From: Tetraselmis striata
Taxonomy: Eukaryota; Chlorophyta; Chlorodendrophyceae; Chlorodendrales; Chlorodendraceae
Reading direction: 5' to 3'
DNA length: 64,000 nt
NCBI GenBank assembly: GCA_006384855.1
Contig: VCJN01002299.1
Span: 62,001 to 126,000, forward strand
In this document: in pieces, positions 3,756 through 49,965 of the stretch
Numbering within the stretch: the stretch's first letter is position 1
Layout of the letters: each line of letters opens with the position of its first letter
The notes under the pieces: generated by a model
Seen by the model: only the letters and a program-made list of their open reading frames with translations
Databases searched by the model: none
What the model was told of the DNA's origin: nothing
Made by a program: the position numbers and the translations under genes

Positions 3756-3756
3756 T

Positions 3757-25083: not shown

Positions 25084-26513
25084 ATGTCGGCCAAGGGCTC
25101 GCCAGCCGGGAAGCATGCCGCCGCGCTCGGGCGCTCCGCCTCGACGCCGGCGTCACCGGCCGAGAAGATGGGGCGGCCGCAGCGGCATCAGTTGATAGTG
25201 CAGGACATGGTGTTCGCGCTCCGGCTTGGCACCCACGACGAACGGGTACCACTCCCCCCCCCCCCCCCCCCCCCCCCCAGGCCGCCTTATCACTCTTATT
25301 CGCCAACCACTCAGAATATCTTGCAATGGGAATATGGCTGAGATGAGTTTCAACTCACGAAAGACGGATAAAGGGCACATTGAAGGGTCTACATAGCCGC
25401 CCAAGTTTCTGCAACAGACATTCTGCTGCCCGCGCCTGGGCATGGGCCTTTCGGGGGCAACCCGCCGCACATGCATGCGTCACTAAGCTGGGTGGAGGCT
25501 TGGCGTGGGGGCAGACTTGGGAGTCTCACGGGGGGAATGCAAACCTATCCACACACTCCCCGCTTTGATGTACAGACACGGTGTGGCCCATCTGAGATAC
25601 GGATACGCACACACATGCTCGTGGCTGCGCAGGTGGAGGCGGCGGTGGTGCTCGGCGGGCTAGCGACGCTGAGCGACGGCCATAGAATGCGCATCATGCA
25701 GGCCGGCGCGCTGGATGCGCTGCTCGAGTGCACAGACATCTTCCAGGACTTTGTGGTGAGAGGCTGCTCCGCGCCGATGCCCCCCCCCCCCCCCCCCGCC
25801 CCCCTTTACTGCCCCTACCTTCCCCCCTTGTCCGCTGAGTCCTCCCCTTCCTGGTGCCGTGCTCAGCTGCCGCGGTACGCGCTGCGAACTCTGGCGGACC
25901 TGAGCGTCAACGAGAGCGTGCGGCAGGAGGTGAAGAACCGCGGCGGGCTGCCCAAGCTGGTGGACGTGGCGCGGCGGCTGGTGCTGAGCATCGAGCAGAT
26001 GCCGGCGCTGCTGGAGAACGAGCAGGTTCCGCTGGTGGCGCAGGCCATCACGGCCGCGCTGTCCGCACAGTCCAACAACGACAGCTCCAAGGTCATCATC
26101 CGCGAGATGCAGGGCATTGAGCTCCTCATCTCCGCCCTCAAGCTGTTCACCTCCAGCGAGGAGGTGCGACCGCCCCCCACCTACCCCACCCGCTGCCTCA
26201 CCATAGGCACTAGCTCAGCCACTGATGCCGTCTTTGAGCGCGCGGCATGCCCCGGGCGTCCGCAGGTGCAGCTGGAGGTATGCACCGCGCTGGCTAACAT
26301 GTCGCTGGATCCCGCCTCTCGCGCCAAGATCACGGGCGCAAAGGGCGTGGAGGCCATCTGCGTCGTCCTGCAGGACGGCCCGCCCTCCAAGGTGCGCTGG
26401 CCCCAGTGCTCTCTGCAGCCCTTGCTCCACACCCAAGGCAATGCGCATCCATGCCAACATTCACCATCCGATGCCCACCAGCCGCCATCACAGCCGCATG
26501 CCAGGACTGCGGA

Positions 26514-26544
<31 letters not shown>

Positions 26545-29500
26545 CCCAGTGGCCAGTGCATGGCGAGTGTCGGCATGAGGAGGATATCGGCGCGAGGCAG
26601 GGGCCAGTAGGGCGGTGGGTTGCACGCGGCGCCTCAACTTCCCTTCACCCGCCCGCTTCCCTCAGGTGGTGCTGTCCTCGATGCGGGCGCTGGCACACGT
26701 GTCGCGCATCGACCAGGCGGCGGAGAGCTTCACGGCGGAGCAGATCGAGGCGGTCGTGCGCTGCATGACAGACCGCCCGGACCGCGAGGTCAACATGTGG
26801 GCGGCGCAGGTGCTGTCCAACCTGGCCGCGCACAAGCCGGCGAGGCCGCTGATCGAGAAGTGCGGTGGCACCAAGGCGCTGTGCGCTCTGCTGGGTGAGA
26901 CCTGCACACCACAGACTTGCTGCATCCCCCCCCCCCCCCCCCCCCCCCCGGGGCTATCCCATGCCGCTCCCACCCTTTCATTGCTATACGAGCAGTCCTC
27001 AGGGCGTTGTATCTCTCGCAATATGCGTTAAGGGCTTACCTGTTTTCCCACCTGGGATGCCGTGAGGCCCTCAAACCACCAAGAGCTCCGCGTGAGATTG
27101 GTCTCTCTCTCTCTCTCTCTCTCTCCCCCTCCCCCCCTTGCGGTGCGTCTTCTTTGCTCACCGCAGTGTCATGCGACTGGGCGGGGCTACCAGCAATGCC
27201 GTGACAACGCTCTGGGTTTGCCATACAGCATTCCGATGAAGAGGGGGTTAGGTAGGTTGATGGTACAACCCCTGGAGACTACGCCCTCAATAACCCGGCA
27301 CGATGCTGCAACACGGTCCCTTGATTTCCTGACCCGCCAGCATAGTGCAGCAACGGTATCGAATGCCCGCTGATGGGCCCCGTCTCGTCATTGGCGCACT
27401 CGCAGTGGCGGGCAATGGGACGCTCAAGCGCTCCACCAGCTGGGTCGTCACCGCGCTGAGCCGCCTCGTCAGCAACGCGGCCACAAAGATCACGATCCAG
27501 AAGGAGCAGGCCGTCAAGCCGGCGGTCTGGCTGCTCGGCAACATCATGAGCAACATGGGCAACGCCGCCATCCCGGAGGTGCTGCACCTGCTGAGCGCCA
27601 TGTGCGCCATCGAGGCATGCCAGGTGGAAATCCACGACACGCACGGCACGCAGGTAGGACCCCCCCCCCCCCCCCCTTTACCGCCTCACCCCCTCCCCTC
27701 TGCTGCCATCGCGATGCGACATCGCCATTGCCGCTTTTTTGCCATTTGGCTATTCCAACTCGCTGTGGCGGTTGTCATTCCTGTTTCTGTGAGGCAGTGC
27801 CCCCCCCCCCCCCCCCCCCCTCTCATACTCCCCATGGCCATTGCCATGGCAAGTGTATAGCACTGTACTTGATGCTGCTAGTCCCGCATGCCAAATTGTC
27901 AACGCTCTGGTCACTTCTCCGTTTCCCTGACAGTGCGTGCTCATTGACACGGCTCATAGCCCGTGATCATTTCCTGCTAGGGCGGGTGTGGCGCCGACTG
28001 ACAAACTGGCTGACTGTCAAGCGAGTCGCCCCGTCTTCGCGCATCCGCCAACATGCGCCCTGTTCCAGATTGCACTTGCCATACACATCACCATCTCCCT
28101 GTTATTTGCTCCTGTAGTTTGGTAAAAGGTGGTTACAATGCACAATGACACGCGTGGCCTCCACGCCGCCGCAGCGTCTGCTGTGCTGGGCCGGCTTCCA
28201 TGGCATAGGGGTGATGACTCGGCGTCTGCTGGTTGGCGGGCAACGAGCGCTCTCGCGGCCGTTGAAATAGTGCTGTGTTTCTTGGCGGGCGCTCTGTTAC
28301 TACAGTTGATGATCAGCCTGGCGGGCAGCACCTTCCCCAAGCTGATGAAGAGCGCGCTGTACACGCTCTCCATGCTGGCGGACTACCCGGAGGTGCGGAA
28401 GACCATCAGCGCGGATCAGTCCACCATGACGGTGCTGTTCAGCCACATGCAGAACAACGCGGATGTCTGCTCACTGGCGGCCGCCATCATCGCCAAATGC
28501 ACCAAGTCGGCGGTGAGCATGCGCATGAACTGCCGCCCAATACGAGGCCCACCTCCTGTTTACAGCCACGAACACTGACCGCATGGTTATGAGCGGTGAT
28601 GGAAGAGGAGGGTTTGGAATCAAGTTTCAATAATATGTATTTAGGGTATTTTTAGGGTTTTACCTGTCACCCCCCCCCCCCCCCCCTCTCCCCCCCAATC
28701 CTCTTTCCACAAAAGAAAAGTGAGAAGAAATTGTAAACGGCACAGACTCGCTGCCGGTTGCAGCATGCGTGACTGACGTGCGGGACGGGGATGTGCGGCG
28801 TCCTCGGCCACCAGGACTGCGCGGAGCGTCTGGCGACGGAGGAGGTAATGTCCGTCATCTTCAACATCACTACCTACGGCTTGGACGACAAGACGGCGGC
28901 CTGGGCGGCCAACTCCATCCTGAACATGTGCGTCAAGCTGGGGGACCGCCTGGTGGAGAAGTGCCCAGGTGCCCCCCCCCCCCCCCCCCTCGCGCGTTTT
29001 GCTGGGCATACGGCACCCGAGCCACCACCATCGCGTGCCAAATTTATCGAAGGGCACATTGATAGTTGATGGTCTTGTCATCCTGATTCAAGACGGACTG
29101 TTGATTTGGCACGCGCGTCCAATAGCACATGTACGAGATGCCTCTAGATACAAAACAGTCGCAGCATACAAGTAAATGCTACGTGTGATCAGCAGGTAAT
29201 TACGGGCGGATTACACAGTCCATACTTGCAGCATGTGTGTGCCTACTCATCACCAACTCGCTGCGCGTGCAACGTTGGGTTCCTGTGTGTGCATGCAGAA
29301 ATGTATGGGAATTCTGTATCAACACAACACATTAAATACAAGACATGAGCTCTTAACAGTCTTTTCAATGGTAGAGCTACCGATGTGGAGTATCACCTTC
29401 TATGTTGTGCAGTGGGAGCACATCTATAGTACATAAGTTGCTGACGGTGTTTCCATTGGAATCGCGAATTTCCTGCTGGTGCGCTCAAGCGTGCTCGGAT

Positions 29501-32500
29501 GCTAATTGACGCCCCCCTGCGTGACCCTGGTCTAGGGTTAAGAAGGGTGCGCACAGTGCCGCTGCCTTTGCCGCGACGAAACTGTGCGCTAATCCGATCC
29601 CCCCGGTCCGCCTCGCAGGTGTGGTGGTGAACATCATGAGCACCCTGGTGAAGGACACCAGCAACGACGTGCGCGTCTGGCTGATGGGCGCGCTGGCAGA
29701 GCTGTCGCAGAACGACAACTGCGCCAGCGCCATTGTGGACATGAGCGGCATAACGCTCATGGCGCAGTACATCTCCACCTCCACCGACGGCCAGGTGCGT
29801 GCGGGCCCCCGCAGCCATCAGCCTCACCCTTTTTCTCCAATGAGCGGGGGTCAACCGCTCGCTTAAATTGCTCCACGGGCGCTGATTCCTCCCTCGTTTG
29901 CCATCGAAGCCGACCACGCGCGTGCCCAAGTACTGGCGGAGCACCGCCGCCAGGGAAGTTGACGTTGTCGTTCAACTGGGCGTCGCTGCACTCGAATTCA
30001 GCACCAGAGCCCACCGCTTCCCCTGTGTAGAGGAGAATACTATGAGCGGGTCATCATATAAGAAACACAATTGCAAGGATCTACGGGTGCTGACGCGGTA
30101 CTAAGAACACTACGACTAGGAACCTGGCCTGCCTGCCAGAGATCACATGTAGACGGAACTATAACGAGTGTTGTTATAGGTTGCATGCAAGACCAATTGA
30201 GGGTTATAATAAGAGATCGTGCAGGTGCGTTGGCACCCGTATATGTCACGGGGGCTGTAGCCAGGACCCCATATCTGATAGACCAGGCGATGCCCATGAG
30301 CCATCCTGACTAAGGTCGGTTTACTGGCTGGGCGCGCTTGACGCCAGTTGGCGCTGGTGTTTCTTTTCCATTGCCCAGTGAAATTGCGCTTTCTTTCCGG
30401 CGCGCCCCGTGGAGAATGGGACTGGCGGGGGCTGACGTTTCTTTTCTCCCCGCCCGCCCGTGCGCGCAGTGCATTGAGATGGCGGCCAAGGTGCTGCGGA
30501 ACCTGGCCGCCAAGGGCGACCCGCGCGGCGAGTTCAACAGTCAGGGGGCCATCCGCCCGATGGTCAACCTGCTGCGCCTGAGCCAGGAGAACAACGACCT
30601 GGAGAACACGCGCAACGTGGTCACCTGCATGGAGCACCTCTCTGAGAGCCCCGACAACGGCTGCGCGCTACGGTGTGCCGCCGCCGCCAGATGCTCCCCC
30701 CCCTCTCCCCCCCCCTTCCCCTCATGCCGCTCGCTGTCTGCCCGCCGATGCAAGGCGTGGGACTGCCGTTACGCGCTGCCATCCGACTGAGTAGCCGCCC
30801 CGTGGCTGTCTCTGCGCAGGCAATCCGGAGCCATTCCATTGCTGGTGTACTTGCTGGGCAACCAGGTGCACACTCGCCGCATGGATGCATCCCCCTAGGC
30901 AGCAACCCTGAAGCCCCTGCCGCCCATCCAGCTCGGTTGCTGCCATGCTTCGTCGTGCCCAAATTTGATATTTCATTGCCACGTACATACGGACGCCGGC
31001 CTACAACAACAACAACAACAATAGTAATAGTAATAATGATAATAATTGTAAATTATATATATATTTATTTAATAATAGTGTTAATAGTTATAATAATCAT
31101 AATGATAATCCTCATCACAAGCCTCGCATTGGGCTTGCGTGCAACCGATAAGTACATTCACTGATAAAGATCTGCTATGACTCCGTCAACATTTGACCTC
31201 TGACAGGCAGGGCAGGTTCCTATTCGCAGTGCTCTTGAATTTTTGAATTAAAGTTTTTTCCTGTGCGGGGGGTCAAAATCGTTATTATCCGCGGACCGTT
31301 TGTGTTTGTACGATATAATTGAATTGAACAGTCACAATCAAGCTGAATTGGCGCTCCTCAACTGCAAGTCCGCGCAGCTGCGCTCGAGTCCCTCCGGCCA
31401 TCGGCACACATACCTCGCAACGCCCCCTAAAAAGTATTCACAAGAAAGCGCCCTCCCTTTGCCCACATCATCCCTAACAAATACATAACCAACATGCTAC
31501 GAAGCTACATAGGTGCCATCGGGCACCCCCCCGAAAGCCTATTTTTACCAGTTTCTTATTAGTGTGTCGGCGCCTGTACGGGAATACAATGAGTTTGCCA
31601 AAATCTCAAGCCATGCAGGAGGGGGGGGACTGTTTAAAACCCGGCAGTCTCCATGTTGGCCCCACAAGCAGTGGCGCCGCCTGCGCTGTGTGACGCTGAC
31701 ACTGCCCTCTGTCGTCACGCTGGGTCGGCGGCGCCCGCTCAGGTGGGAGCGGCGTTCGTGGACCTCGAGTCCGAGGCGGCCGCCACACTGGCGCACCTTG
31801 CGCAGCACGACCCTGGCTCGCTCAACATCATCCGCCAAGCGGGCGCCGTGCCCAAGCTGCTGGCCATGCTGTCCATCGCCAACCACGGCATCAACGCGTA
31901 CAACATTCCCACGGCGGTGACCAAAGCCGTGGAGGTGCCCCCCCCCCCCCCCCCCCCACCGCTCGCGCCCACCCAGCTGTCTTACGCGCAATACATTACA
32001 ACACACAATGCAATGGCTGTACATCGATTATAATTGTGGTGCAAAGACAGTCTTGATGTGTAGAATTATTGTGCCATTGCTCAGACTGATTGCTGCCACG
32101 AGCGGATTGCCTCGAGGCTGTTTGCTTTCTTATTTTATTATGGATGAAATGGATGTGGCGTCTTACCTTCAGTTAAACAATGAGCACAATGGAATGTTCA
32201 TTGCGGGATTAGGTTGGGTTAGAATAGATTGAATTGGATTGGATGCAATGCGAGTGGATGCTATTGGATTGTCTTGGATGTGACGGGATGCGGTTGGAAT
32301 GAGCTGTGTTGTATTAGATCGGACTAGAACAGATTGGATTAGGATCATAGATTAGATTGCATTGGATTAGATTAGATTAGATTAGATTAGATTAGATTAG
32401 ATTAGATTAGAGTAGATTGGATGCGATGGGATTGGTTTGAGCTGTGTTATATTAGATTGAATTGGATTGGATTATTTTGGATTTAGTTTGATGTGATGCG

Positions 32501-35173
32501 ATACGATTGGATTGACCTACTTCGGAGATACATTTCTACTCCTGGGTATGGGCCGCCTTCCGCCGCCTCGCCCTCCATCCCCCCCTCCCCCTCCCCCCAG
32601 CTTCATCTTGCCGCCGCACGGAAGAAGTCCCGGCCGCTGCCCCGCCGCGGGGCCGCCCTTCCGCAACAACCTGACAGACATGGGTCCTCCGCTTGGCGCT
32701 GCCCTGTGACAGTGCCTGCGGGCTGTGTGCGAGGACAACGACCTCAACCGCAAGGCGGTGCTCAACTCCTCAAACTTTTACGCCGTGGAGGCGCTGCGGA
32801 TGCGGGAGCTGGTGCGCACCCGCGTTGCTTCATCCCATGCCCCCCCCCCCCCCCCCCGGGGCTAAAAGCCCGTATTTGTTGCGCGTGCACCATCTTGCGT
32901 TGCTGCAGTCCTTGCGTTTGGGGGGAGGAGGGGGGGGGGGGGGGGGGGGCAGTGTTTACAGCGCCTCCTGCTTCTACAAATACCTCCTCCCCCCCTCAGC
33001 CGCCTTGACGAATGTCGGCGGAACACAGATGGCCTGGCTTGCATTGGTACGCGAGTAGCCCGCCTGCAGTAAGGATTACACCTTAATCATAGCCGCTGTC
33101 ACCACGCTGCCTGTAATGATTACGATCTCGGCCTCATGGGGTTTTGGGTTGCGACACATATCACCTGACCCCCCTACCCTGCCGACCGCCCCCCCCCCCC
33201 CTTTCCCCGCCCATGTCCCCGCTCCCTTTCTCCTCCCGGACCCTCCCCCCCGTTCGTACTTGCAGGAGCTGCAGTCCACAATAATCAGCGACACGGTGGC
33301 GCCGCTCCTGGAGGCACTACGCCTCAACCAGGACTGGCTGAAGGACACGCCCCGGCCCTTGCCGCGGCGGCGCAACACCAAAAACTTCATTGCGCGGCCC
33401 GAGAGCGACAGCCCCGACCACGCGCCCGTGGGCAACGGCAGCGTCATGCAGGACACGTCGGATCGCGGTGTGCGAGGCTGCGGGCCGCCCGTGGGTGGGC
33501 CCCCCCTGGGAGGCCCGCCGCTGGGCGGCGCGGCGAAGAAGGAGGTGTCATGGAAGAGCGGCCAGATGGCGGCCGCCGCGGAGGCGTCGGTCTATGATGA
33601 GGAGCCGGTGGAGAAAAAGATTGTCTTCACCAACACGTTTTCCACGCGCAGTCCGGTGCCCCCGGCCAGCGGCCCCATCGCGGCGCTGCTGCAGGAGCTG
33701 GGCAAACCGCCGCCAAATGACAGCAACCAGAATGGGGGCGGGCAGGGGTGAGCGCTTGCCTCCCCCCCCCCCCCCCCCCTTCCCTCTTTGCACCCTCCCC
33801 CCCCCCCCCCCCCCCTTAGCTTCTCGCCCTCCCCTTTCAACTTCCCCCGTGCCGCGCATTGTCATGTCTAGTAGGTGCCATGTAGTGTTTGGCCGTGTCG
33901 TGTCGAGTCGTGTCCCGGGATTGGGCATGTGTTCATCCGGCTCTATTCTGTTCTTGTGGTCCCATGGCAAGCGGTCAAGTGCTGTGTCCCCCATGTGCTT
34001 ACGCATACTGCATGCATATCAACGCTAATCTTTTTCCGTGTTTGGTCACTGCATGTTTCGTCCGAGCATGAGGCATGTGGAAGTGCGTGTTTTGCTCTAC
34101 CCTGCTGTGTGATATCATGCAGTGCCGTGCAGCGCCATGCTTTCACAAGTGCATGTCCTCTCATGTCGTACCGTACCGTTTCAAGGCGTGGCATGTCAGC
34201 CGTGCCCAGTCGAGTCGTGTCGTGTCGTATCAGCTGGTCTCGTCCCGTGCCATGTCGTGTCATCTCGTCCCATGACGCGGCATGCCGTGTCGTCTAATGT
34301 CATGCTGTGTCGGTGCCGTGTCATGTCGTGTCGTGCGATGTCATGTCATGTTGTCTTGTCTCTTGTCATGGCATGTCGCGCTATGCTGTGTCGCATCATA
34401 CCGTCTCGCCTGGTCCCATGTCATGTCGTGTGATGTCAAATCATGGCGTGGCGTGTCATGTCTCGTCTCGTCCCGTGTCATGTCATGCCGCAACGTGTCA
34501 TGTCATGATGTGTCATTTCATGTCAAGGTGTGTCATGTCATGTCATGGCGCATCGTGTCATGGCATGTCAAGATGGGTAATATTATGTCGTGTAGCACCG
34601 TTATATGCACTTGGAACACCTATTTTTGGTTTTGTCTGTGTCGTGTTATGCCATCTTCTGCCACACAGAGCCCCTGGCCTGTGACCCATGGGCGAGACTC
34701 CAACCCACACGTGATGGAGGAGATGACCACCCACTAAGCCCATTTTCTTTTTCGAAAGCTCACCGGAACCGTGCTAGCTGCATGCCTTCCAATTGGGTGC
34801 GCTGACGGGCCTGTTCCGCATGGCGTTGTGCAGGCGGAAACCCACGCGAGTCGACTCCTTCCCGGTGCTGGATGATGCTGCAGGTGCGGTCAAGCTGTCA
34901 CGAGGGCGGCGTGCGGTCAAGGGGGCTGGGTGTGCCTGCCTGGATCGCCGATTATTCGTTTGCCGGCACTATTGAGAAGTGCCGCCTGTAGTCATTCACT
35001 TTTTTCTTCTCCAGCTGCACATGATGGGGACTGACAAAGCCCGCTACTTACCACGCGCAGATGAGCGGGCGTACTCCAACTCGTATGCAACCACAGAGGC
35101 ACGGTCCGAGACCTCCCAGGCCAGCCTGGACTATTTTCTGGCGCAGCAGTGCGCGCAAAACTTGTTAGATTAG
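25084..35173 (+). CDS. Armadillo-repeat protein, 16 exons, 968 aa
   Basis: Exons: 25,084-25,245; 25,633-25,755; 25,867-26,163; 26,266-26,391; 26,666-26,894; 27,406-27,653; 28,306-28,512; 28,815-28,968; 29,619-29,794; 30,470-30,672; 30,820-30,865; 31,743-31,934; 32,713-32,811; 33,266-33,747; 34,834-34,883; 35,061-35,173. All use GT-AG and phases close to 968 residues. Residues about 35-750 are tandem armadillo repeats (LRTLADLSVNES, VCTALANMSLDP, LSNLAAHKP, VLRNLAAKG, ATLAHLAQHDP), an alpha-solenoid that binds partner proteins. Residues 755-914 form a basic, Pro-rich low-complexity tail. The specific partner is unknown; I do not recognise a named orthologue. Start is the first in-frame ATG of an exon splicing in phase. 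The last two exons are less sure: if the donor at 33,748 is skipped, a TGA at 33,749-33,751 ends the protein after exon 14. Confidence 0.8.
32220..32520 (+). repeat. GGATT/ATTAG pentanucleotide repeat in intron
   Basis: Intron 12 of the armadillo gene contains about 300 bases of imperfect five-base repeats (GGATT and variants) with a pure ATTAG run at about 32,350-32,410. Confidence 0.9.
33860..34600 (+). repeat. Degenerate CATGTCGTG repeat in intron
   Basis: Intron 14 of the armadillo gene contains roughly 700 bases built of five-base steps such as GTCAT, GTCGT and GTGTC. It keeps a strong five-base rhythm but few perfect units. Open frames on the plus strand here (Cys, Val, Met, Ser-rich) are by-products. 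Confidence 0.8.
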
Positions 35174-35361
35174 CGACCCCCCTTCCCCCACCGCCCCCTC
35201 CTCCCCAGCAAGGTGTCTGCCCGCACGCTACGCCAGCCATGTAGACATATCAGAATGTGGTTTCTGCCCCGATGGCCCCGCGCCCTTCTCCTCCCCCCTC
35301 CCGCCTCCCCGTCGCCTCTGTATTCCCCTGTTGCTGCCTTTGCCAGTCCGCCCTAATACAT

Positions 35362-35366
35362 TGTAA
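35362..35366 (+). promoter_or_regulatory. TGTAA polyadenylation signal of the armadillo gene
   Basis: TGTAA lies 189 bases after the stop codon. This pentamer is the usual green-algal poly(A) signal. Confidence 0.4.
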
Positions 35367-35373
35367 GTTGTGC

Positions 35374-37390
35374 CGTATGGTGGGAGTGGTGCGACAGCGT
35401 TTCACTGTGTTGTACACGCACCCCGCTCATTTTGACATGGCAAAACGCTGATGACCGGTGGCTGAGCGTTACCACCTCCGGCAACATCCGTCATTGGATA
35501 TTCAATAGTATATGTTTATTGTTGCTATACACCAAATCTTGGGCAGATGGCTTGAATCAGGATGTAGGCCTGCTGCTGCCGTGACACGCGCATATTCAGG
35601 CTCGCGTAGTGCGCCTTGCTATATACTGTTGCTTTCAGTGCTACCTGGTACTGACGGGCCGCGGAACACGTTATCCGATTATGTGCATGGCCCACATGGC
35701 CACAAGAAACTGTACTGGATCAGCCACGACGACTGCTGAAGTGCTGATGATATGATCCAAAACAATTGCCGCTGCGGCCCGTGGTCATGCATGGGTAAAT
35801 TTATTTTTTGGGCATCACAGCGCATTAGTAGTAGCGCGGTAGGCCTAGCGCCCTTGCTATATAAGACGTGGTGCATGTGTGCGCTTGCTGAAGCGAACCG
35901 TGTTGGAATAAACCGGCACAGCACATCTTCCATGACGATCATCGATTCGGGTAGCAAGAATGAATGACAGATGTGGCATGCTGTAAACAAATAGTAGTAT
36001 ATTCACTACACTATTACATATGCTGACAAATGCAATTACCGCGTATATTAATGACAACCATCATAGGCTGGTGGCGGACTCGGACTCGCAACTCGGTATA
36101 TTCGTAGTCAATTGCTATAATCATTAACTCGCATGATATCAGTATTTTATTGTATATCTACGTATTGTTATTCTCATCTCGTGCTACCTATACACTGGTC
36201 CACATTGATTCCCATTTTGCCTGCAGCCCAGCCTCCATATTTTGCGCAAGTACACTGTTCCAATATTGCACGTACATTCACTACCTGCATGCCCACATAT
36301 CACATAGAATCGAATCACTGCGACATCAGCAGATCCGCCTGAGGTGCAGCAGCACCTACAACTACGCAGTTGCTTTGTACCGCATAGCGTTGAATCGTTG
36401 TCGGTATTATTATTGTATGTACTTGATGCTCGCAAGCAATCGCATGAGACAAGGTTTCCGGCGGCGGTTCAGCATGCGGTATGGGAATGATATGACGAAT
36501 ATAAATCCATGGGAACGAATATATTCATGGGAATACATGGGTATCAATAGGAATGGATGACAGGAATATAAATACATACATATATATATATACATACATA
36601 CATGTGTACATATGAATATATTTTTATATATACATATGGGGAAGAATCCACGGCTGAGTCAGCATGTGCAGGGCGGCCTGATGCTGTGCATCATTTGGCG
36701 CAGTTCATCAACGAAACCCAGCAGCACAGTACATTGTGCGACCGCTCGAGAGTACAGAATGGGCCCCTAACAAATGTTGCTATAGTTGCATGTCATGTTT
36801 TCCAACGACAGATTAATTATCACATCTTTACCGGTAAAGGCGTTTTTTATTTTGGCATATCTTTATGATTACATGGGGTTCCACAGCACCAGCCCGAGGG
36901 AGCAAAATGACACACGCCACATATCTTCAGAGATGCTAGGCGTGTAGCAGGCAGTCGGATATTAGGGTTTTAGGTTTAGTAAAAAAACCCCATTGACTAC
37001 CCATACTACACAGACAGACGTATTCTCGGATTCTCGGTTGGCTCGAACATGTCAGCCCGATGGGCTTTGAATGTCTGCGCTGTCGCACGGTAATTTGTCA
37101 TCATGGGTGCCTCACAAGCGCCCTACAGGGGCAGCTGGCGGCTAGCCCCGATGTGGCGATGGCCGCGGGCGGGTCAAAAGGCCCTCTGTGCAAAATATTT
37201 GGCATTGATGCCACATGGCAAACAATAGCGACTGGCCGCATTGCCCGGCACGAAGCGCCGGAACACGACAACTTCAAAGGAGAGCTGGTGAAGAGCCGAC
37301 GCAGCCCTGAAGACCCGCAATTCTGTGTACGTACGGTAGCCCCATCCCATAGCACTGGATCCCGCCCCATTTTCCCGCCTAGGATCCGTT
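35374..37390. other. Convergent intergenic region, no gene seen
   Basis: Lies between the 3' ends of the armadillo gene and the NSE2-like gene. It includes an AT microsatellite at about 36,565-36,640 and telomere-like TTAGGGTTTTAGGTTTAG at about 36,962. No coding frame of note. Confidence 0.5.
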
Positions 37391-37395
37391 TTCCT

Positions 37396-37400
37396 TTACA
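37396..37400 (-). promoter_or_regulatory. TGTAA polyadenylation signal of the NSE2-like gene
   Basis: On the minus strand TGTAA lies 94 bases after the stop codon. Confidence 0.5.
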
Positions 37401-37493
37401 TGGCCCATTGTCCGTGATGCATTTCTTGGTAGGGCGTGTGTATCACCGACTGGGCGGCTTCCCCATTGTGGGCCCCTCGATGGGGCCCCGGCC

Positions 37494-40400
37494 TCACTCG
37501 ATCTCCACGGCGTCCGACTCCGCGCGCTTCACCTGCGGCCGCGACTTGAGCACTTTCTGCTTGCGGATCACGCGGCGCGCCGGCTTGAGCTGCGCGGCCG
37601 TGATGAAGTAGGAGGCGCCTGCGGTGGTGTGGGGCAAACGTCAGGGTGTTGCTCGTGCCAAGGTTTTCAAGGTCAGAGCTATTCAACGTTATACTAGGGT
37701 TTCGAACCCTATATGATAAACCCGGTTACCAGGGGCAGCCCTGCCTCAGGGCCACTGGCAACGTAGGATAATTATCAGGGTGTTTAAAGCTCTTGGCGGT
37801 GTGGCATGCAATTTCAGGGTTTCGAAAGAACCTAGGTCCTGCACCTGCAATCATCACTTGTCAGGGTACTGTTTTTTTTTTAGTATTTTGGCTTTCGGAG
37901 GACTAATGCCAAGGTGTTGCCCTTCCAAGGTGCTGCCTTTCCATACACACCCTTGGGGCTCGGGCACGTCGTTTTAGGGTTTCAGAGCGCCCGGAGGTAA
38001 ACCTCTAATTATAAAGCCTCCGCGTACCTCTGGCACTTTGCTTCAAGTTGTTGCCACTGCTACCATAAGAGGGTCGGAGGATGAGTATGAGGAGGAGGGA
38101 GGGGGGGGGGGACGGGGGGGGGGGGGGATAGGGGGGGCATTGCCTGCGATGGGGGAGGGAACGGGCTGGCCGCCTCGCCCCTTGCTGGCGATGTACGCCA
38201 TGATGGGCTGCTTCTCGTACACGTAGCCGCTCTGGTCCTCCACCGGCTCCAGCAGCTCCAGCACCTGCGGGCCGCCAAAACAGTGACTCAGTCGCAGGCA
38301 GTGAAACCCTACGGAACCCATTCAACGGCATGGCATCCTAATGTATGCATCCTAATGTCGACCTTGTCCCACTGCCACCGCTGCCACCGCCGCCAGGACG
38401 CTGTGGTCCGGCGGCGGAGGAACATTGACGTCCGGACTCGAACAATACATAGGTAAAAGAGGCAGCCATCTGAAAGTCCCTAGCTTGGCCGAGACTCCGA
38501 AGTGTGCACCCAGGACTTGGGCTGCGGCATCCCGTACAGTACAGCGTTGTTCTACGCGTGCCGGCGCGGTCACCTACTACAGGCCGCAAAATAACAGGGA
38601 CAACGGTACAAATCCGTGCGAAGGCTGCCCGCCACATGGCATCGAATCGCTTCCTGCAGTTTGCGGGCTTGGCATGGTGCACCCTCGAACTAGTAGCCCA
38701 TGCCCATCGTCGCATGGATGCGGTGGCGCGTGCTAGCGAAAAACGCTAATGGGAGTGGTGTTGGCGAATCGTTTGCATGTGAGACGGCTCGCCGCGTTAC
38801 ATCAAACGCACACAGTGTACACCCAGGGTCCGTTGGGTTATTTATATGCACCACATTTATACAGCATGTAGGTCTGTGTGGTGCCTCTCGTGCGTCACGA
38901 GCCCGTGCCCTCGCAGATCGCTGGGGCTCCAAAGTGGCGTAACATTCGGTTGCTAGTGTCCGCACGCGGCGGGTATTTTGCTTGTACGTTAAAATTAGTG
39001 CACGAAACATAGAAGGCGGCGCGGCTGCAAGTATCCGGGTCTCTACCTCTGCTCGACCCGAAGGACTTGGGCAGCGCGCGATCGGTGCGCGCAACGTGTG
39101 CGCGTGTGCGCGTCATGGTCACGGGCAGGATTCGAACCTGTCGCCCGTTGCGCACGAGGCAAGTGTCTTACACTCGCCCCTACCTGTAGGCGGGATAACG
39201 CCACATACCCACATTTTCTAGTATCTTTTTTTTCTGTTTATATCCTCTCCCAATTGGTGCGGCCTCTGCCACGCGCCGCAGTAGCAATTGTTTGCGAGTA
39301 CAGAGCGTCGGTGTGATTTTGTGGACTGTAGTATAAGAACGCCGCGAATACCGGTAGGAAAACTGCGCTACCTGCCAGAGGTCAACGGTAGACTAAACTA
39401 TAGCAGCGAGACTGCAGCAAATGTTGCTGTAGGTTACCCGCAAGCGCACTGAGAGGCCTATGATAGGGGCTCTCACACGCGAGTCTGCACCCGCAAGTCG
39501 CAACTGCTCTGTAGGGGCGGGGCGGGGAAGATGGAGGAATAGGGAGACAAGGGGGGGGGGGGGGGGGGGGGCTCTCACCGGCCTGAGGGTCAGCGGGCAG
39601 GCCTGGTTGACGGACACCTCGTTGCTGTCGTCGGCCATGACAAGATCGGCGTCGGGGTCCTCCTCACCGCCGTTGGGGTCCACCACCGCCCGCAGCTCGC
39701 GATCAAAGCGCACCATGTGCTCGCTGGTGCTGGGGTCGAACCTGGTCAATGGAGGAGGGGAAGGGGGCAATGAGTCAACGCACGCAGCAGACAGGAACTC
39801 TCCGGGGTCCGTACCGCTCTTGCATTCGCTGCACCCATTCGTGTGGGAGCAATGTGACAAGTCCGATGTCTGCATACGGTACAATTAAATACGGTCCGCA
39901 AGCCCCTAAAAATGTGAATTGTTTTGCACCTTTGGGTCGGAATATTCGTGTTGTATTCAAGCCCTGTTCTGACCGATTTCTCCGTTTTAATACTTTCTTT
40001 GCTCTGCACAGGGGGTCAGAAACGTTGTTTATCCGCACACAGTTTGTGTTTGTACGGTATGCCACGGTTACGGGAACGATGTGTGCCTGAGATTTTTAAA
40101 GGGCGGGTACAGGAACGATACCGCACTGCCGGGTGGAAAGCGCTGTGCTTCTGAGGCGCATGTTGTCTCGATTGTTACCTTGGCTTTGCGAGCCATCCGT
40201 GCCCAAGGCGCGACGCTCGCCACACGGCAGCGTGATATCGCATATATACCCGGCGTAACCCCAGATACACATTGTGCGTGTACTCGGAAAAACCCCTAAA
40301 ACTTTAAACTACCCCCCCCCCCCCCCCCCGGAGACTTCAACTGTAGGTTTCATTGTGGATCGATGCAGCGATCTACAGATCCTCAAATCGGGAACACCAA

Positions 40401-42355
40401 GCTCCGAAACCAGTGCGACACTCTAGCTGAGGAGGGTAGTTCAATCAATCTTGCTTTCTCGTCTCTGCACTTCCCGATCGCGCACTGCACCACCCACCCG
40501 ACTGACCAAATGACTCCCTAAGGCAGAAGTGCCGCGGCGAGCGCATACGTACAGTACTTTCTGGGCTGCGGCAACTTGGATAAGCGTCCCTGCGGTGAGG
40601 GTTGACCGGATGTAGCGACTTGACAGTGGTGACAAGCTGCAAAGAGGGCTACGCCATTTACCCACTCGGGAGGCGGGTAATCAGTGGCGCCCGTCCAACC
40701 CCCTGCAGCTCTATGTAAGCACTCCCTAACCCCCTCCCCCCCCCCCCACTCTCTCTCTCCCCCGCCCTCTCCCTCTGTGACAAGCTGTCCTGAGATAGGC
40801 TTCCCGGGAATTCCACCAATAATTGCGCCTTGTCCCGAGGGCATCTAAGGTTTATGTTTATGGCCAATGCCAAACCCTACTTCGTAAACCCCTCAAAGAC
40901 CCTTGATTTTGGGTGGGTGGGGGGGGGGGGGGGGGGGGAACAGCGCTCACCCAGAAGCGGCCAGCATCTCCTCCCGCATGCGTGCCAGCTCCGCCTCAAA
41001 GTTGGTGGCCACCACTACCTCGCCGCTATTGACAGCCGGGGCCACGTAGGCCGAGGCCAGCTGGCGCAGCGCGCTCGCCTGCGCGCCCAGCTCCGCGTCG
41101 ATGCGCAGCATCTCCTCCACCGCGGCGCGCACCGCCGCCACGTTATCCTTCTGCCCGGGTGAGGCCGCGAGGTACTTGGCGCTCTCGATGAAATTGGTGT
41201 CAAAGTCGCTCATCTGCGAGAGATAGGGGCATCGCGGCCGACAGTGCTTCCCACCTTTAACAACCCCGCGCCAACTACTCGCGAGCGCCCCTCTTGGCTA
41301 CCAACGCTCAAGGCCACTCCCTCCCGTTCTCTCTGTTGCGCTATTTCTCATGGATTGCAGCAGCGCCGACTGGCTCGCGGGCCGCAATGAGGCCCAGTCT
41401 GAGGTGCTCACATGATGTCAGCAAGCCCCCGCTACACAGTGATGCCTTTCCACCTTGTAGGTACATGGCGTAAGACAGCCCCCCCTTGCGGCACCCTCAC
41501 ATTCCAAACTGCCGCTCTACCATTGACCCCCCCCAAAAAAACAGACACACACAATACACACCTTGTTATCTCCCTCCATCTCTCTCTCATGCTTTTTTAT
41601 CCCATCCCTCATACCCTGTCGCCGCACACTGGTTGTCGCTGTTGTCTTGCCGCCGTGTAGGCAAAATGCAGTCCAAATTGCCCCCGGTGTCTGCCGCCCT
41701 CTCTCTCTCACATGCTATCCCTTTCATGGGTCGTAGCCGTACGCCAGTTGACTCGCTTATAGCAAACGGGCGCAGCCTGATTTCACCCTCACCCGAATAA
41801 GAAGTGGATGAAGGGCGCATCTGCCTAGCGGGTGATTGTATACAGCGCAGTGGCAGTGGCAATGTGTGGGGCTACCAACATGACGCTGACACGCTGACAG
41901 CTGCACCAGAGACTGCCCTCGTCATGCATCCTCGTTGGAGGGGCACGGACCGTATCCAAACCCTATCCACCTCACATGCAGTTGCGTATAAACGTAGGCA
42001 CATTACTGAAGCATTCGTCGAGGAGGCGCCCAGGTGCCGGTAGGGCGATAGCGATAGCCGTGGCAGCAGCCTCGCTGGCGGGCCCGAGGCGGCGCACGCA
42101 GCCGGCATGGCATGAATATCCGCCCAGCCCCGCTTCCTTACATATCACACGACTAAGCACACATTTCCGACTCCCGCCCGCGTGTGCTCTCGCGGGGGGC
42201 AGGGGCGGCAAGGGAGGGGATATGAGGGGGGCGACATCGTCGCGGCGGTGCTGGTGGTGGTGGCTACTCGCCTGCATGGTTCTGAGCTGCTCCACGCGCG
42301 ACGCGCCGTTGTCCGCGATGTGGCGAAGCGTGTTTGTATCCATCGAGGTCGCCAT
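37494..42355 (-). CDS. NSE2/MMS21-like SMC5/6 SUMO ligase subunit, 251 aa
   Basis: Minus-strand exons: 42,272-42,355; 40,951-41,213; 39,579-39,741; 38,144-38,264; 37,494-37,618. They close to 251 residues, close to human NSE2 (247). The N-terminal two thirds is helical, as in family members that dock on SMC5. The C-terminal SP-RING-like region begins with ACPLTLRP (162-170), then DQSGYVYEK, SPIAGASYFITAAQL and a basic tail. In NSE2 this domain positions the SUMO-loaded E2 and acts in DNA repair. All four expected zinc ligands are replaced here (Ser182, Tyr184, Ser207, Ala212). Two introns begin with GC (42,271 and 38,143). The second exon starts with an ATG directly after an acceptor, so the true start is the upstream exon with CGCCATGG context. 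A U-box protein is the main alternative. Confidence 0.7.
38560..39212 (-). repeat. tRNA-headed long repeat, inverted copy inside NSE2 intron
   Basis: Reverse complement of the 3,757-4,470 repeat. The tRNA-like head is at about 39,118-39,186 (B box GGTTCGAATCC, anticodon-loop-like CTCGTGC) and the tail reaches about 38,560. It lies in the third intron of the NSE2-like gene in the same orientation as that gene. Confidence 0.7.
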
Positions 42356-42393
42356 GGCGAGCCCGCTTGTGTAGGTGGCGGGGTGGGGTCCGA

Positions 42394-42396
42394 GAG

Positions 42397-42424
<28 letters not shown>
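42394..42424 (-). repeat. Poly-C (sense) tract just upstream of the NSE2 start
   Basis: About 30 uninterrupted G bases on the plus strand, that is C on the sense strand, end about 40 bases before the ATG at 42,355. The position suggests either a 5'-UTR intron of the same poly-C type seen in this gene or a core promoter feature. Confidence 0.6.
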
Positions 42425-42427
<3 letters not shown>

Positions 42428-42429
42428 GA

Positions 42430-43391
42430 TTCTCGATTTCTCGGACGACGATCCGAGAAGACGGCCCTCGGGCTGTCGTGGCGCTGTGCGGGTGTGCGGC
42501 CGTAAGACACGCGCCGTGCAAGCGACGACTCGGTGCGCTTCGTGAGGGTTAAAGACGGGAGCGAGGAGGTTTTCAGAGGGCGTCGTGAGAGGTGGTGCTG
42601 GCCTTGAGTTGTAGCGAGTGCGCGACCAGTCGTCTCCGTCTATCGCGACACTTCGAACCTCGCGGCGCACAAATTCAAAGCTGCGCCCGCTGATGCTCCA
42701 AGCAGGCGGGTTTCACTTCTGCCAGTCCTGTCCCGGGGGCGGGAAAAATGTCGGCGTGTTCTCGACGACTACCCCCAAAAAACAAAATATAGTCGCTATA
42801 GCCACATGAGCTAGCTGCAAAAGGCGATCAGGAAGCCACCCGAAGAGGAAATACAAAACGTCCACAACAGCAATTGCGCGGTGGACTATACCAACATGAA
42901 TGCATAACTTTCAATTTTCAAATATAACTGCTGCAGCCGCCTGCTGTAATCCTTATGTACTGTAAACTAGCGACTACGGGTACCCGTACTTCTGAAAAGA
43001 AAACCTATTGTCCACCACCGGTCGTACGGGTACTAACGACAACCCGTACAGTGGTTGGTACTGGTACTACCTACTTACACGTACCGTGATACTCATAATG
43101 TACTACCGGCGGGCTCAATATCAAAATAAATTATGTAAAAGTACAAGAATCAGTTTCGCGCCGCTCAATGTAGCAGTCGCTAGTCGCTATCCTGAGCAGC
43201 TGCGCGCCCGCTAGCGACTAAGGATTAGTCGCTATATGCTGAGGATCATTATCATCATGCACATCGGCGCGCCGGCTGCCCAAATCAATTGGCACTCTCT
43301 CGTCGTCGATCCGACCCATCGCCAGCCAGACCAAGACAACGATCGCCTGCTTTGCTGCTATACCTTCCCAAACGCTTGCGGCCTGCTAGTG
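42430..43391. promoter_or_regulatory. Divergent intergenic region between NSE2-like and plastid genes
   Basis: About 1 kb separates the two divergently transcribed starts and must contain both promoters. It contains a copy of a short dispersed repeat (GGGTTTCACTTCTGCCAGTC near 42,708) and several GGGTACCCGT-type motifs near 42,970-43,050. No clear TATA or initiator was identified. Confidence 0.4.
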
Positions 43392-45139
43392 ATGGCTCTC
43401 GCCGCGTGTGCTGCAGCTACTGGGGCCACCGCCACCTTCCAGACCGGCCGCATCGGAGTAACCCCCCCCCCCCCCCCCCCCCCACACACACACACATACC
43501 GCCCCGCCCCGCCTGCTACCCGTACTGCACTAAATGTTGCCGTAGTACGGACATAGATTATGACAGGATAAGGAAGTCGCAATTTGTTAAATCTATCGAT
43601 GTACCGCAGATGCCAGTAGGGATTAAAATGCGCCACATCGGATAAGGTGGCGGGGAAAAATGAAATTGCGGTCAGATTTTGATGTAGATGTGCTGCGAGT
43701 GACCGAATATTAACGCCCCAGACCCCCCTTTTCCTTGCAGCTGGCTGCCTCGCTGCGAGCTAGCAGCCCCAGCTGCCCCAAGCCGTCGCTGCGCCTGTCG
43801 CACCGCGGTCAGCTCTGCGCCAACCCGCTGCGAGCGGCGTCGCGCCACGTTGGTGCTGCTCGTCCTGCCGCACGGGTTGCCGGCTCCCGGAGCGCTGTGA
43901 TGGCGTCCGCAGCGGTCACTCCCGCCATCATCGTCGGCAAGGGGCGTGTGGGGCAGGCCCTGCTGGACATGGGCGCCGGTGAGGACGTTATTCTCGGTCG
44001 TGGGGAGGCGATCGCCGGACCTGAGGGTCCCATCATCGTCTGCACTCGCAACAACGACCTCCAAGGTAGCCCCCTTCCGCCCTATCCCATCCTCAATATA
44101 TGTGTGTGGTGGTGGGGGGGCGGGGGTGGGGGGGGGGGGGGGGAGAGCCGCGCCAAAGGATTCAGCACTGCCACGAAGTGGCACAGGCGCTGACCATGGG
44201 CTTGATTTCTTGTCCGTGCGGGAAGGCGTCGTGGACGCCACTCCTGCGGAACGCCGGGAGGATCTAGTCTTCATCCAGAACGTGAGCGCCGAATGCTAGG
44301 CACTGCTCCCACCTACAGTAATGCCATGGATGGTCGCACATCGGGGTGACTTGTGCAGGCTCCCTGTTGGCGCATTCTACCTTCTGCAATCAGTGCATGG
44401 TAGTGCCTGCAACCTCAGCCTGTGCAGGTGATGGTGTTGTTCTCCGTCCGCGCAGCATCCTGCAGATGCACTTCTGCAACATTACATGGTGAAGACATAC
44501 GCCCATTCTGAGTGCAATTGGGCGCACCCCTGCTGATGGCTGGTCTGCTGGGCGCACCCCCACCCACAGGGCATGCTGCAGCCCTGGCTGGACGCCGCCG
44601 GGCTGGGCGACAACACGCAGGTGCTGGTGTTCTTTGCGGTGGCCAAGCTAGGCGACAAGCCCATGGACGGCAAGACAGACGTCAACCCAGAGGGCCTCAC
44701 CGCCGCGTACGGTAAGCACGCGCAAAACGTGGCGGACCGCCTGGCGTGCGACGGGCTATCCTGCAAGGTGCTTGACCAGGAAGAGTTCAAGAAGGCCATG
44801 CTGGAGAAGCTTATCTGGATCTCCGCTTTCATGCTGGTTGGCGCGAAGCACGGCGGCACCGTCGGTGACGTCGAGGCGAAGCATACGGCTGATGTCACCG
44901 CTCTGATCAACGAGCTGGCGGCCGCAGGTGCGGCTGAGCTAAACGTCACCCTGGACGATGGCGTGGTGGACCGCCTCAATGCGTATGCCCGCACGGTTGC
45001 GCATTTCCCGACGGCGGTGAAGGAGTTTGAGTGGCGCAACGGCTGGTTCTACGCCATCTCGGAGCGGGCGCTGCAGGCGGGCAAGGACGACCCCTGCCCC
45101 ATGCACACCGCTTGGCTGAAGGAAGTGGGCGCTATCTAA
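43392..45139 (+). CDS. Conserved plastid-targeted Rossmann-fold protein, 338 aa
   Basis: Exons: 43,392-43,457; 43,741-44,065; 44,226-44,281; 44,570-45,139, all GT-AG with phases closing. Residues 1 to about 75 are Ala/Ser/Arg-rich and poor in acidic residues, typical of a green-lineage chloroplast transit peptide. Then comes a beta strand with GKGRVG (88-93, a GxGxxG dinucleotide-binding loop), then ICTRN-type and LVFIQNGMLQPWLD motifs, a catalytic-like block (EKLIWISAFMLVGAKHGG) and a C-terminal helical part with HFPTAVKEFEWRNGWF. It resembles a protein widely conserved in plants and algae with a ketopantoate-reductase-like fold; the substrate is not known to me. It is divergent from the NSE2-like gene. 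Start is the first ATG of the exon that splices in phase. Confidence 0.8.
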
Positions 45140-47763: not shown

Positions 47764-49965
47764 ATGCATGCATATGTGCCACGTGTGCGTGCAACGCGTG
47801 TGGCCGCGTTTTTGATGAGATATGCACTTACGCAGTGGTGTTTTGCTTACCTGTTGGAAGGCTGCGCGGCAGCGGCACTCGCGCTCGCTCTGCTGCTGGC
47901 CGCCCTGTTGGTGTTTGCTGCATGCGCCGCTGATGATGGATCGACGAGCCCGACCGACTCGGCCGTCTCCGGCACCGTGATCGGCATCGATCTTGGGACC
48001 ACATATTCGTGTGTCGCCGTCTACAAGAACGGGCGCGTGGAGGTGATCGCTAACGACCAGGGCAACCGGATCACGCCCTCTTACGTCGCTTTCACGGATG
48101 CCGAACGCCTGATCGGCGAGGCTGCCAAGAACCAGGCGACGAGCAACCCGGAGGGCACGGTGTACGACGTCAAGCGGCTCATCGGGCGCCGGTACGCTGA
48201 CAAGGAGGTGCAACGCGACCGCAAGCTCGTCTCGTACAACATCGTCGACCGTGATGGGAAGCCCAACGTGCGGGTGTCGGTCAAGGGCGAGGCAAAGACG
48301 TTTTCGCCCGAGGAAGTCAGCGCCATGGTGCTGGGCAAGATGAAGGCCACCGCGGAGGCGTACCTGGGCAAGCCAGTCAAGCACGCCGTCGTCACGGTAC
48401 CCGCGTACTTTAACGACGCGCAGCGGCAGGCCACCAAGGACGCGGGCGTGATCGCCGGCCTCTCCGTGGAGCGCATCATCAACGAGCCCACCGCCGCGGC
48501 ACTCGCGTACGGCCTGGATCAAAAGGGTCCCGAGAAGAACATCCTGGTCTTTGACCTCGGCGGCGGTACCTTCGACGTTTCGGTGCTGACCATCGAAGAC
48601 GGCGTGTTCGAGGTGCTTTCCACCAGCGGCGACACCCACCTGGGCGGCGAAGACTTTGACCAGCGCGTGATGGAGTACCTGATCAAGCTGGTGAAGAAGA
48701 AGCACGGCAAGGACGTGAGCAGCGACGCGCGCGCCAAGCAGAAGCTGAGACGCGAGGCGGAGCGCGTCAAGCGCGCGCTGTCGACCCAGCACCAGACCCG
48801 CGTGGAGATCGAGTCGCTCGCAGAGGGCGTCGATCTGTCGGAACCTCTCACCCGCGCTCGTTTCGAGGAGCTCAACGCTGATTTGTTCAAGAAAACCATG
48901 GGACCGGTCAAGCAGGTACACCAATTATGAGCACGGACGCCCAGTGCATGCGTTGAGTTTATGCGACTCGGTGAACGCGCGTGGTCGTAGTGGGGAGGAT
49001 CCCACTTATACAGCAGCGAAATGACAGTGCTTATCGCTGCACAGGCGCTAGCGGGTGCAAAGCTGAAAAAGTCGGACATCGACGAGATCGTGCTTGTCGG
49101 CGGCTCGACGCGCATCCCGAAAGTGCAGCAGCTGTTGAAAGAGTTTTTCGACGGCAAGGAGCCCAGCCAGGGGGTCAACCCAGACGAAGCGGTGGCGTAC
49201 GGTGCGGCGGTGCAGGGCGGCATCCTGTCGGGCGAGGGCGGCGAGGACGTGAGCGGCGTCATCTTGCTGGACGTCGCGCCGCTTACGCTGGGCATCGAGA
49301 CGGTTGGCGGCGTGATGGCGAAGCTCATCCCGCGCGACACCACCATCCCCACCAAGCGCTCGCAGGTCTTCACCACCAACCAGGACCAGCAGTCCACGGT
49401 CTCCATCCAGGTCTTTGAGGGCGAGCGCGCCATGACCAAGGACAACCACCCGCTGGGCAAGTTCGACCTCCAGGGGATCCCCCCAGCCCCGCGTGGCGTG
49501 CCCCAGATCGAAGTGACCTTCGAGGTGGATGCAAACGGCATCTTGAGCGTCAGCGCGGAGGACAAGGGCAGTGGGAAGAGGGAGAAGATCACCATCACCA
49601 ACGACAAGGGGCGCTTCAGCAAGGAAGAGATCGAGCGCATGGTGGCGGAGGCTGAGGAGTACGCGGAGGAGGATCGGATGGCGAAGGAGCGCATCGACGC
49701 GCGCAACACGCTGGAGACGTACTGCTACAGCACGCGGAGCCGCATGGAGGACGAGGACATGAAGCTGGGCAAGGGTGACAGGGAAGCGGCAGCTGAAGCG
49801 GTGAGCGAGACGCTGGAGTGGATGGAGGACAACCCGGAGGCAGAGGCGGAGGAGTATAGCGAGAAGCTCCGCGAGCTGCAAGACATATGCGGTCCCATCC
49901 TGGCGCAGGGGCAGCCGGGGGAGGATGACAACGGCGACGATCTGGGAGACCTCGACGAGCTGTAG
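47764..49965 (+). CDS. BIP: ER-lumenal Hsp70 chaperone (BiP/GRP78 type), 690 aa
   Basis: Two exons, 47,764-48,915 and 49,045-49,965, joined by a 129-base GT-AG intron in phase 0. ATP-driven folding of secretory proteins in the ER lumen. The N-terminal about 55 residues include a long hydrophobic stretch ([16 protein letters not shown]) that fits a signal peptide; a second in-frame ATG at 47,815 would give a shorter leader. The nucleotide-binding domain has IDLGTTYSC (75-83), the [11 protein letters not shown] block, [10 protein letters not shown] (about 264-273) and, after the intron, [13 protein letters not shown]. The interdomain linker is [10 protein letters not shown] (about 459). The substrate-binding domain and helical lid follow. 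The acidic C-terminus ends LDEL instead of the usual HDEL or KDEL. The family assignment is certain and the ER location is likely. Confidence 0.95.

Follow-up and report, generated by a model that had tools for sequence, protein, structure and literature searches.

Sense-strand poly-C runs just inside 5' splice sites of the green alga Tetraselmis striata: a putative intronic splicing enhancer

Long runs of C lie just downstream of 5' splice sites (donors) in the green alga Tetraselmis striata. We describe them in a stretch of 64,000 nucleotides (GenBank assembly GCA_006384855.1, contig VCJN01002299.1, positions 62,001 to 126,000 of the forward strand), hereafter the window. The window carries an armadillo-repeat gene (ARMC5-like), an NSE2-like gene, a plastid-type reductase-like gene and a BiP/HSP70 gene. 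The runs are C on the sense strand of each gene that has them. This is a real pattern with a sharp position, and it extends over the genome, but outside the window locus it is found in only a minority of introns. We tentatively interpret the donor-side poly-C as a C-rich intronic splicing enhancer that would aid recognition by U1 and has been lengthened by repeat slippage. This type of mechanism is already known from vertebrates; a function in the alga is putative.

We built exon models by hand for the armadillo, NSE2-like and plastid-type genes. With one BiP intron these provide 23 introns in four genes (Table 1). Reading frames are uninterrupted over the joined exons of the three modelled genes. 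All 23 introns end in AG; donors are GT in 21 and GC in 2. The random expectation was obtained by placing each run at random inside its own intron. Runs of at least eight C start within 40 nucleotides (nt) of the donor in 13/23 introns, compared with 1.8 expected, and none of 20000 random draws reached 13. For runs of at least 12 C, the count is 12/23 against 1.3. Sense G runs of at least eight are found within 60 nt of the donor in 0/23 introns; the seven such runs in these introns start at intron positions 63, 119, 126, 204, 622, 738 and 756.

The armadillo gene contributes most of these introns. The initial annotation had placed a C run within about 40 nt of the donor in 10 of its 15 introns. 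Its donor coordinates are exact and the count holds for runs of at least six C (10/15), with 9/15 for runs of at least eight. The runs start at intron positions 9, 25, 10 (C6, where Cn denotes n consecutive C), 32, 7, 4, 24, 4, 29 and 15. The NSE2-like gene has donor-side runs of at least eight C in three of its four introns (positions 13, 8 and 17), the plastid-type gene has one in the first of its three introns (C22 at position 5) and the BiP intron has none (0/1). The NSE2-like gene lies on the minus strand and carries C on its own sense strand, so that run orientation follows the gene, as first reported. We conclude that the strand-specific donor-side bias is real.

Outside the window, we sampled 200 kb, comprising the first 40-60 kb of four other contigs from the same 224-Mb genome. 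The sample is non-random because the contigs were picked from the place list of a count of GTGAG followed by C14. Genes were modelled with an in-house exon-chain predictor script; introns in this sample are therefore predicted. The donor model at +4 to +6 was trained only on the ten hand donors lacking a C run, and hence the predictor leans against a C effect. When run on the window, it recovered 16/23 hand donors among 24 calls at one setting. At the conservative setting, used for our main count, it recovered 15/23 among 27 calls. The main count covers 6 of 13 predicted genes, with 66 introns, and gives 89 introns when combined with the window. A Pfam scan covered 9 of the 13 genes, in part or whole, plus one extra exon. 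The kept genes above the Pfam cut-off encode LRR, MMS19, elongation-factor-type GTPase, 6-phosphogluconolactonase and topoisomerase VI B matches; the sixth, a 2OG oxygenase, scored just under it (26.3, cut-off 27). Of the seven genes left out, four looked by eye like artefacts (antisense or mobile-element) and were unscanned, two gave no match when scanned and one passed. This last gene, on contig C21, scores 26.9 for a HET domain, where the cut-off is 22.5, and merited keeping. One of its five predicted introns has a run of 21 C at position 12, and none has a donor-side G run.

The bias recurs in the six outside genes. Runs of at least eight C start within 40 nt of the donor in 10/66 predicted introns, compared with 3.2 at random (0/4000 draws), while equivalent G runs occur in 3/66, compared with 2.1. 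Across all 110 introns of the sample, the counts are 12 for C (3.7 at random) and 3 for G (2.8 at random). Other predictor settings, applied to the whole 200 kb, give 8-12 C introns among 77-135. Hence, the effect replicates outside the window, but in 11-15% of introns rather than 57%. The initial interpretation is partly supported, and the pattern is less universal than the window alone would imply. The difference between 13/23 and 10/66 gives a Fisher p of 2.3e-4, with annotation quality differing between the two sets. A single predictor applied to both finds 8/24 in the window and 9/104 outside. Both comparisons identify the window as an extreme locus.

We also counted words genome-wide. 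The 8-mer CAGGTGMG is followed by C12 within 25 nt in 444 cases, compared with 178 at 45-70 nt and 198 at 300-325 nt. For G12 there are 130 cases within 25 nt and 143 at 300-325 nt. These are forward counts, in which every anchor is listed a single time. To the extent that word counts can show it, donor enrichment extends across the genome and C and G are unequal on the sense strand, the two points on which the initial annotation would have been refuted. Since G12 is hardly depleted near the word, the effect is a gain of C; avoidance of G as its cause was rejected. Scaling from 27 words in 200 kb gives a rough estimate of 15,100 CAGGTGMG on each strand, of which about 150 would be paired by chance. 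Not every such word is a donor: 8 of those 27 coincide with predicted donors. The 8-mer replaced GTGAG, and the switch was made after the GTGAG counts were known. GTGAG is too weak an anchor because, among the matches listed, places where it precedes G14 include a recurring GTGAGCGGTGAAGG-G(n) sequence and GT/G-rich DNA. The anagram GAGTG precedes C14 in 1277 cases, below the 2205 for GTGAG. An acceptor-side count (CCTGCR followed by G12, 1084) lacks a matched control and was set aside.

Run starts delimit the zone involved. Across the 89 introns, the density of starts of runs of at least eight C is 12.4, 5.6, 6.7 and 5.6 per kb in successive 10-nt bins to 40 nt. Farther in, it is 0.56 (40-60 nt), 0 (60-80 nt), 0.59 (80-120 nt) and 0.94 (120-200 nt) per kb. 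G runs have no matching donor-side peak. The effect is thus toward C, on the sense strand, within the first 30-50 nt or so, and gone by about 50 nt. Directly past the C zone, sense G runs may form a small peak between 60 and 80 nt (four G runs and no C run), with too few runs to judge.

The zone is C-rich even when runs of at least eight are masked. Between intron positions 6 and 60, the masked C-over-G skew reaches 0.30 for window introns and 0.12 (95% interval 0.045-0.19) for those elsewhere, with an intron interior near 0; on the acceptor side it is 0.10 and 0.015, respectively. C content falls from 43% in the first 20 nt to 21% at 100-150 nt in window introns, and from 37% to 27.5% elsewhere. 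T is not raised, which identifies a signal of C and not of pyrimidines generally. Short C4-5 seeds in 85 predicted introns elsewhere are about four times denser near donors (12.5 against 3 per kb). Intron starts remain C-skewed after masking, so the long runs seem to have expanded within a zone that is itself rich in C. Long G:C homopolymers are also common: the 200-kb sample contains 128 C or G runs of at least 10 and no A or T runs of that length. Each of the four stretches and the window has 23-42 of the former and 0 or 1 of the latter (a T run, in the window). Over these 264 kb, G:C runs are thus common and A/T runs nearly absent, so C tracts in the zone should be prone to expand. The simplest anatomy in this GC-rich alga is a C-rich zone at the intron 5' end, covering about the first 60 nt, where G:C slippage yields long poly-C. 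The runs resemble G:C mononucleotide microsatellites in being long, uninterrupted, abundant in the 200-kb sample and not restricted to genes; they differ in their bias of place and strand at donors.

This anatomy could arise without function. C-rich intron 5' ends would supply C4-C7 seeds, slippage would lengthen some of them and the run itself would be inert. The C-richness of the zone would then have another cause, such as a loose base preference or a transcription-linked base bias. We consider neutral expansion quite possible; the enhancer ranks first, and neutral expansion is nearly as good and close behind. The commonness of G:C runs and the fourfold seed enrichment elsewhere are in its favour, as is the plain word test, in which few runs are linked to donors (GTGAG upstream of 7/128, 4.5 expected). 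It fits the window less well. There, seeds within the nearest 20 nt are denser on the acceptor side than on the donor side (20 against 8 per kb), yet no run of at least eight C ends within 40 nt of an acceptor whereas 15 start within 40 nt of a donor. Elsewhere this contrast is weak: donor-side runs number 6 (3-20 nt) and 3 (20-40 nt), compared with 1 and 3 on the acceptor side. Neutral expansion also leaves the excess of the window over the other genes unexplained.

We favour the C-rich enhancer because vertebrates provide a precedent beside 5' splice sites. The initial annotation had suggested a splicing enhancer near U1 sites; this agrees with the pattern and with the precedent, while its function here is putative. 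As an enhancer would lead one to expect, the C tracts lie in the intron near the donor (13/23 against 1.8; 10/66 against 3.2) and their orientation follows the gene (minus-strand sense C; C12 444 against G12 130). According to excerpts of PMC8789036, inclusion of human SMN2 exon 7 rose when poly-C was introduced behind position 10 of intron 7, and more so with more C. Parts of PMC2481429 describe C-rich motifs that function as intronic enhancers in human GC-rich introns, discuss G-rich enhancers and cite the action of hnRNP K at a C-rich motif close to a 5' splice site in chicken. The likeness to these hnRNP K/PCBP-type enhancers, as portrayed in the same excerpts (PMC8789036, PMC2481429), is the presence of sense C tracts within tens of nt of the donor. 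The algal tracts differ in being mostly uninterrupted homopolymers of about 14-30 nt, found genome-wide and more at donors than at acceptors. Two other systems offer partial parallels. G-run intronic enhancers occur downstream of vertebrate 5' splice sites; they too are homopolymer-like tracts just inside introns of GC-rich genes, with the opposite base, and sense G in the alga is not enriched at donors (130 cases near, 143 far). U-rich tracts beside U1 are bound by TIA-1/Nam8. These are pyrimidine tracts at the same position, but the base in the alga is C and T is not raised. A literature search, with subscription papers outside its reach, turned up no algal example of donor-side poly-C.

In the mechanism that we propose, the zone would be a C-rich intronic splicing enhancer that acts in the RNA. 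An hnRNP K/PCBP-like KH protein, or another U1-associated protein, may bind the zone and steady U1 on the donor. Expansion of C runs within the zone would then be tolerated or favoured, and the ARMC5-like and NSE2-like genes would represent the extreme case. If such a run compensates for a poor donor, donors bearing one should be weaker. There is a hint of this: donors with a C run match U1 slightly less well, at 5.78 of 9 positions, than donors without, at 6.26 (p 0.028). A bolder version, in which a G:C homopolymer microsatellite has been recruited genome-wide as a length-tunable enhancer at algal 5' splice sites, seems to us unlikely. Were it true, slippage in fast-mutating C runs beside U1 sites would allow splicing efficiency to evolve in each intron separately, and some genes, as in the window, would bear a tunable enhancer in most introns.

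A number of results weigh against an enhancer. The weaker-donor signal is fragile: it drops to p 0.056 when runs overlapping +4 to +6 are left out, and at -3 to -1 the window shows it (p 0.029) and the other genes do not (p 0.63). Most introns have no run. Outside the window, enrichment of runs and of short seeds is similar in size, so that no selection on the run is needed. C runs are also fairly frequent just ahead of acceptors: in the 89 introns, 6 end within 40 nt of one (densities of 1.1 and 2.3 per kb), all 6 outside the window. Most C runs lie away from donors, with GTGAG within 40 nt upstream of only 7/128. A model-free test for k-mers enriched ahead of C runs in the 200 kb gave no clear donor signal, which speaks against a strong universal effect. 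In the same sample, C12 follows none of the 27 CAGGTGMG words within 25 nt and G12 follows one; genome-wide, GTGAG precedes G14 (2441) more often than C14 (2205). In some subsets of the predicted introns, C is not in excess of G. With strong exons on both sides and the full donor model, 35 introns have 2 C and 2 G runs of at least eight, or 3 C and 6 G at length 6. With a strong upstream exon, 43 introns have 3 and 2, or 4 and 6, respectively. Some precedents also point the other way. Excerpts of PMC8789036 report that SMN2 poly-C at P15 was repressive unless the preceding context was altered. In the portion of PMC4797308 on mammalian PCBP-enhanced exons, a C-rich motif is upstream of 644/686, downstream of 353 and solely downstream of 42. 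As the motif in these exons is mostly upstream, the donor-side bias in the alga is unlike that PCBP case.

The runs might instead act as DNA. A G run in the template could pause RNA polymerase II past the donor, aiding co-transcriptional capture by U1, or could position nucleosomes at exon ends. Such an effect would suit the strict strand-specificity of the runs and their restriction to the first 30-50 nt, and sense C runs flank genes outside introns (at 42399 and 45179). It is nonetheless improbable in our view, since a stalling G structure would need runs whereas the masked zone is C-rich without long ones.

Structure was an alternative raised by the initial annotation, as i-motif or G-quadruplex elements, which would form in DNA or RNA, or as pairing between the C run and a G run of the same intron; the run could also keep the donor unfolded. 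Armadillo intron 13 offers a candidate pair (C18 at 29, G20 at 119). Across donor-C introns, though, sense G runs of at least eight are present in only 2/13 in the window and 1/10 outside, compared with 14/56 of those introns elsewhere that lack a donor-side C run. With so few partners, the C:G hairpin was rejected. Folding of 13 donors gives a mean predicted accessibility of 0.307 for no run, 0.297 for the C run, 0.304 for a G run, 0.332 for A, 0.295 for U and 0.284 for random sequence. No comparison reaches p 0.3, and the folding predictions thus do not support unfolding of donors by the C run. We rate an explanation from RNA structure as very improbable.

Introners occur in green algae and would link one motif with a large number of introns. 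Here, the C run would be the end of an intron-making mobile element, carried since the birth of the intron. Such an origin could account for intron-rich genes and for clustering of the pattern in two adjacent genes, and insertion of a C-ended element was among the initial proposals. We compared the 23 introns all against all with runs masked. Similarity between them is confined to short weak matches and some mid-intron repeat pieces of 50-110 nt. These pieces are never beside donor runs, and run offsets vary from 4 to 32 nt. Judged by their sequences, the introns share no start that would mark a common mobile origin; we rejected it, and it appears the least credible explanation of all.

If functional, the runs would be a splicing signal built of a highly mutable repeat, placed genome-wide and sharply at donors in an alga. 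Repeat length could then be tested directly as a setter of splicing efficiency. If neutral, they are a clean example of a compositional zone at intron 5' ends steering the growth of microsatellites and, in practice, a pitfall for gene prediction and for assembly from short reads.

Table 1. Genes, donors and homopolymer runs in the window. Run positions are counted within the intron; C or G with a number gives the run length on the sense strand.
Feature	Coordinates	Strand	Details
Armadillo-repeat (ARMC5-like) gene	25084..35174	+	16 exons, 15 introns; 968-aa open frame over all GT-AG junctions; PF24768 2.3e-29
Armadillo donors	25246, 25756, 26164, 26392, 26895, 27654, 28513, 28969, 29795, 30673, 30866, 31935, 32812, 33748, 34884	+	
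C25	25254..25278	+	Armadillo intron 1, position 9
C18	25780..25797	+	Armadillo intron 2, position 25
G23	26517..26539	+	Armadillo intron 4, position 126
C24	26926..26949	+	Armadillo intron 5, position 32
C17	27660..27676	+	Armadillo intron 6, position 7
C18	28972..28989	+	Armadillo intron 8, position 4
C8 + C9 (interrupted)	30696..30715	+	Armadillo intron 10, position 24
C20	31938..31957	+	Armadillo intron 12, position 4
C18	32840..32857	+	Armadillo intron 13, position 29
G20	32930..32949	+	Armadillo intron 13, position 119
C18 and C19	33762..33815	+	Armadillo intron 14, positions 15 and 50
NSE2-like gene	37494..42355	-	5 exons, 4 introns; 251-aa open frame; weak zf-Nse match, E 0.01, below cut-off
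C14 + C11	38101..38127	-	NSE2-like intron 4, positions 17 and 33; C7 earlier at 7
C21	39551..39571	-	NSE2-like intron 3, position 8
C20	40919..40938	-	NSE2-like intron 2, position 13
C26	42399..42424	-	Upstream of NSE2-like gene, 43 nt 5' of ATG; no clear donor ahead by eye
Plastid-type reductase-like gene	43392..45139	+	4 exons, 3 introns; 338-aa open frame; name from the initial annotation
C22	43462..43483	+	Plastid-type gene intron 1, position 5
C26	45179..45204	+	Downstream of plastid-type gene, 39 nt past stop codon, behind donor-like GTAAGC
BiP/HSP70 intron	48916..49044	+	No C run; counter-example

Further sense C runs in the armadillo span lie mid-intron at 27800 and 28670, and one at 33189-33201 is 64 nt ahead of an acceptor. 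The interior of armadillo intron 5 (about 27030-27131) contains a (CT)n tract with about 35 other genome matches at 77-88% identity and is a dispersed short repeat. A search of the assembly with the armadillo segment found no second full-length copy, and a search of phage records with the same segment found nothing similar. Eight IMG/VR stretches contain GGTGAG..C14. The plastid-type gene has weak Pfam matches only (ApbA_C, E 0.063, below cut-off).

A repeat in NSE2-like intron 3 (38575-39328) has copies at 3645-4454 and 5-149, with 71-81% identity. Positions 39112-39190 look tRNA-like by eye; ARAGORN called no tRNA there, and neither the Rfam scan nor the tRNA scan gave a hit anywhere in the window. 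In the assembly as a whole, 63 matches to PF00504 (chlorophyll a/b-binding) include near-equal-score pairs on separate contigs (C476/C1576, C1057/C2075, C553/C2374 and C970/C1672), and the assembly may hence hold duplicated haplotypes. An open reading frame at 14884-16215 (minus strand) encodes a tyrosine-recombinase N-terminal domain (PF02899) and is flanked by 188-nt direct repeats, 98% identical, at 14343 and 17024, marking this as mobile-element DNA. The two GC donors of the window both belong to the NSE2-like gene, in two of its four introns (42271 and 38143, minus strand; CAG/GCGAGT and CAG/GCAATG). One predicted intron on contig C4 of the assembly also has a GC donor, AG/GCGAGC, which is followed by a run of 29 C.

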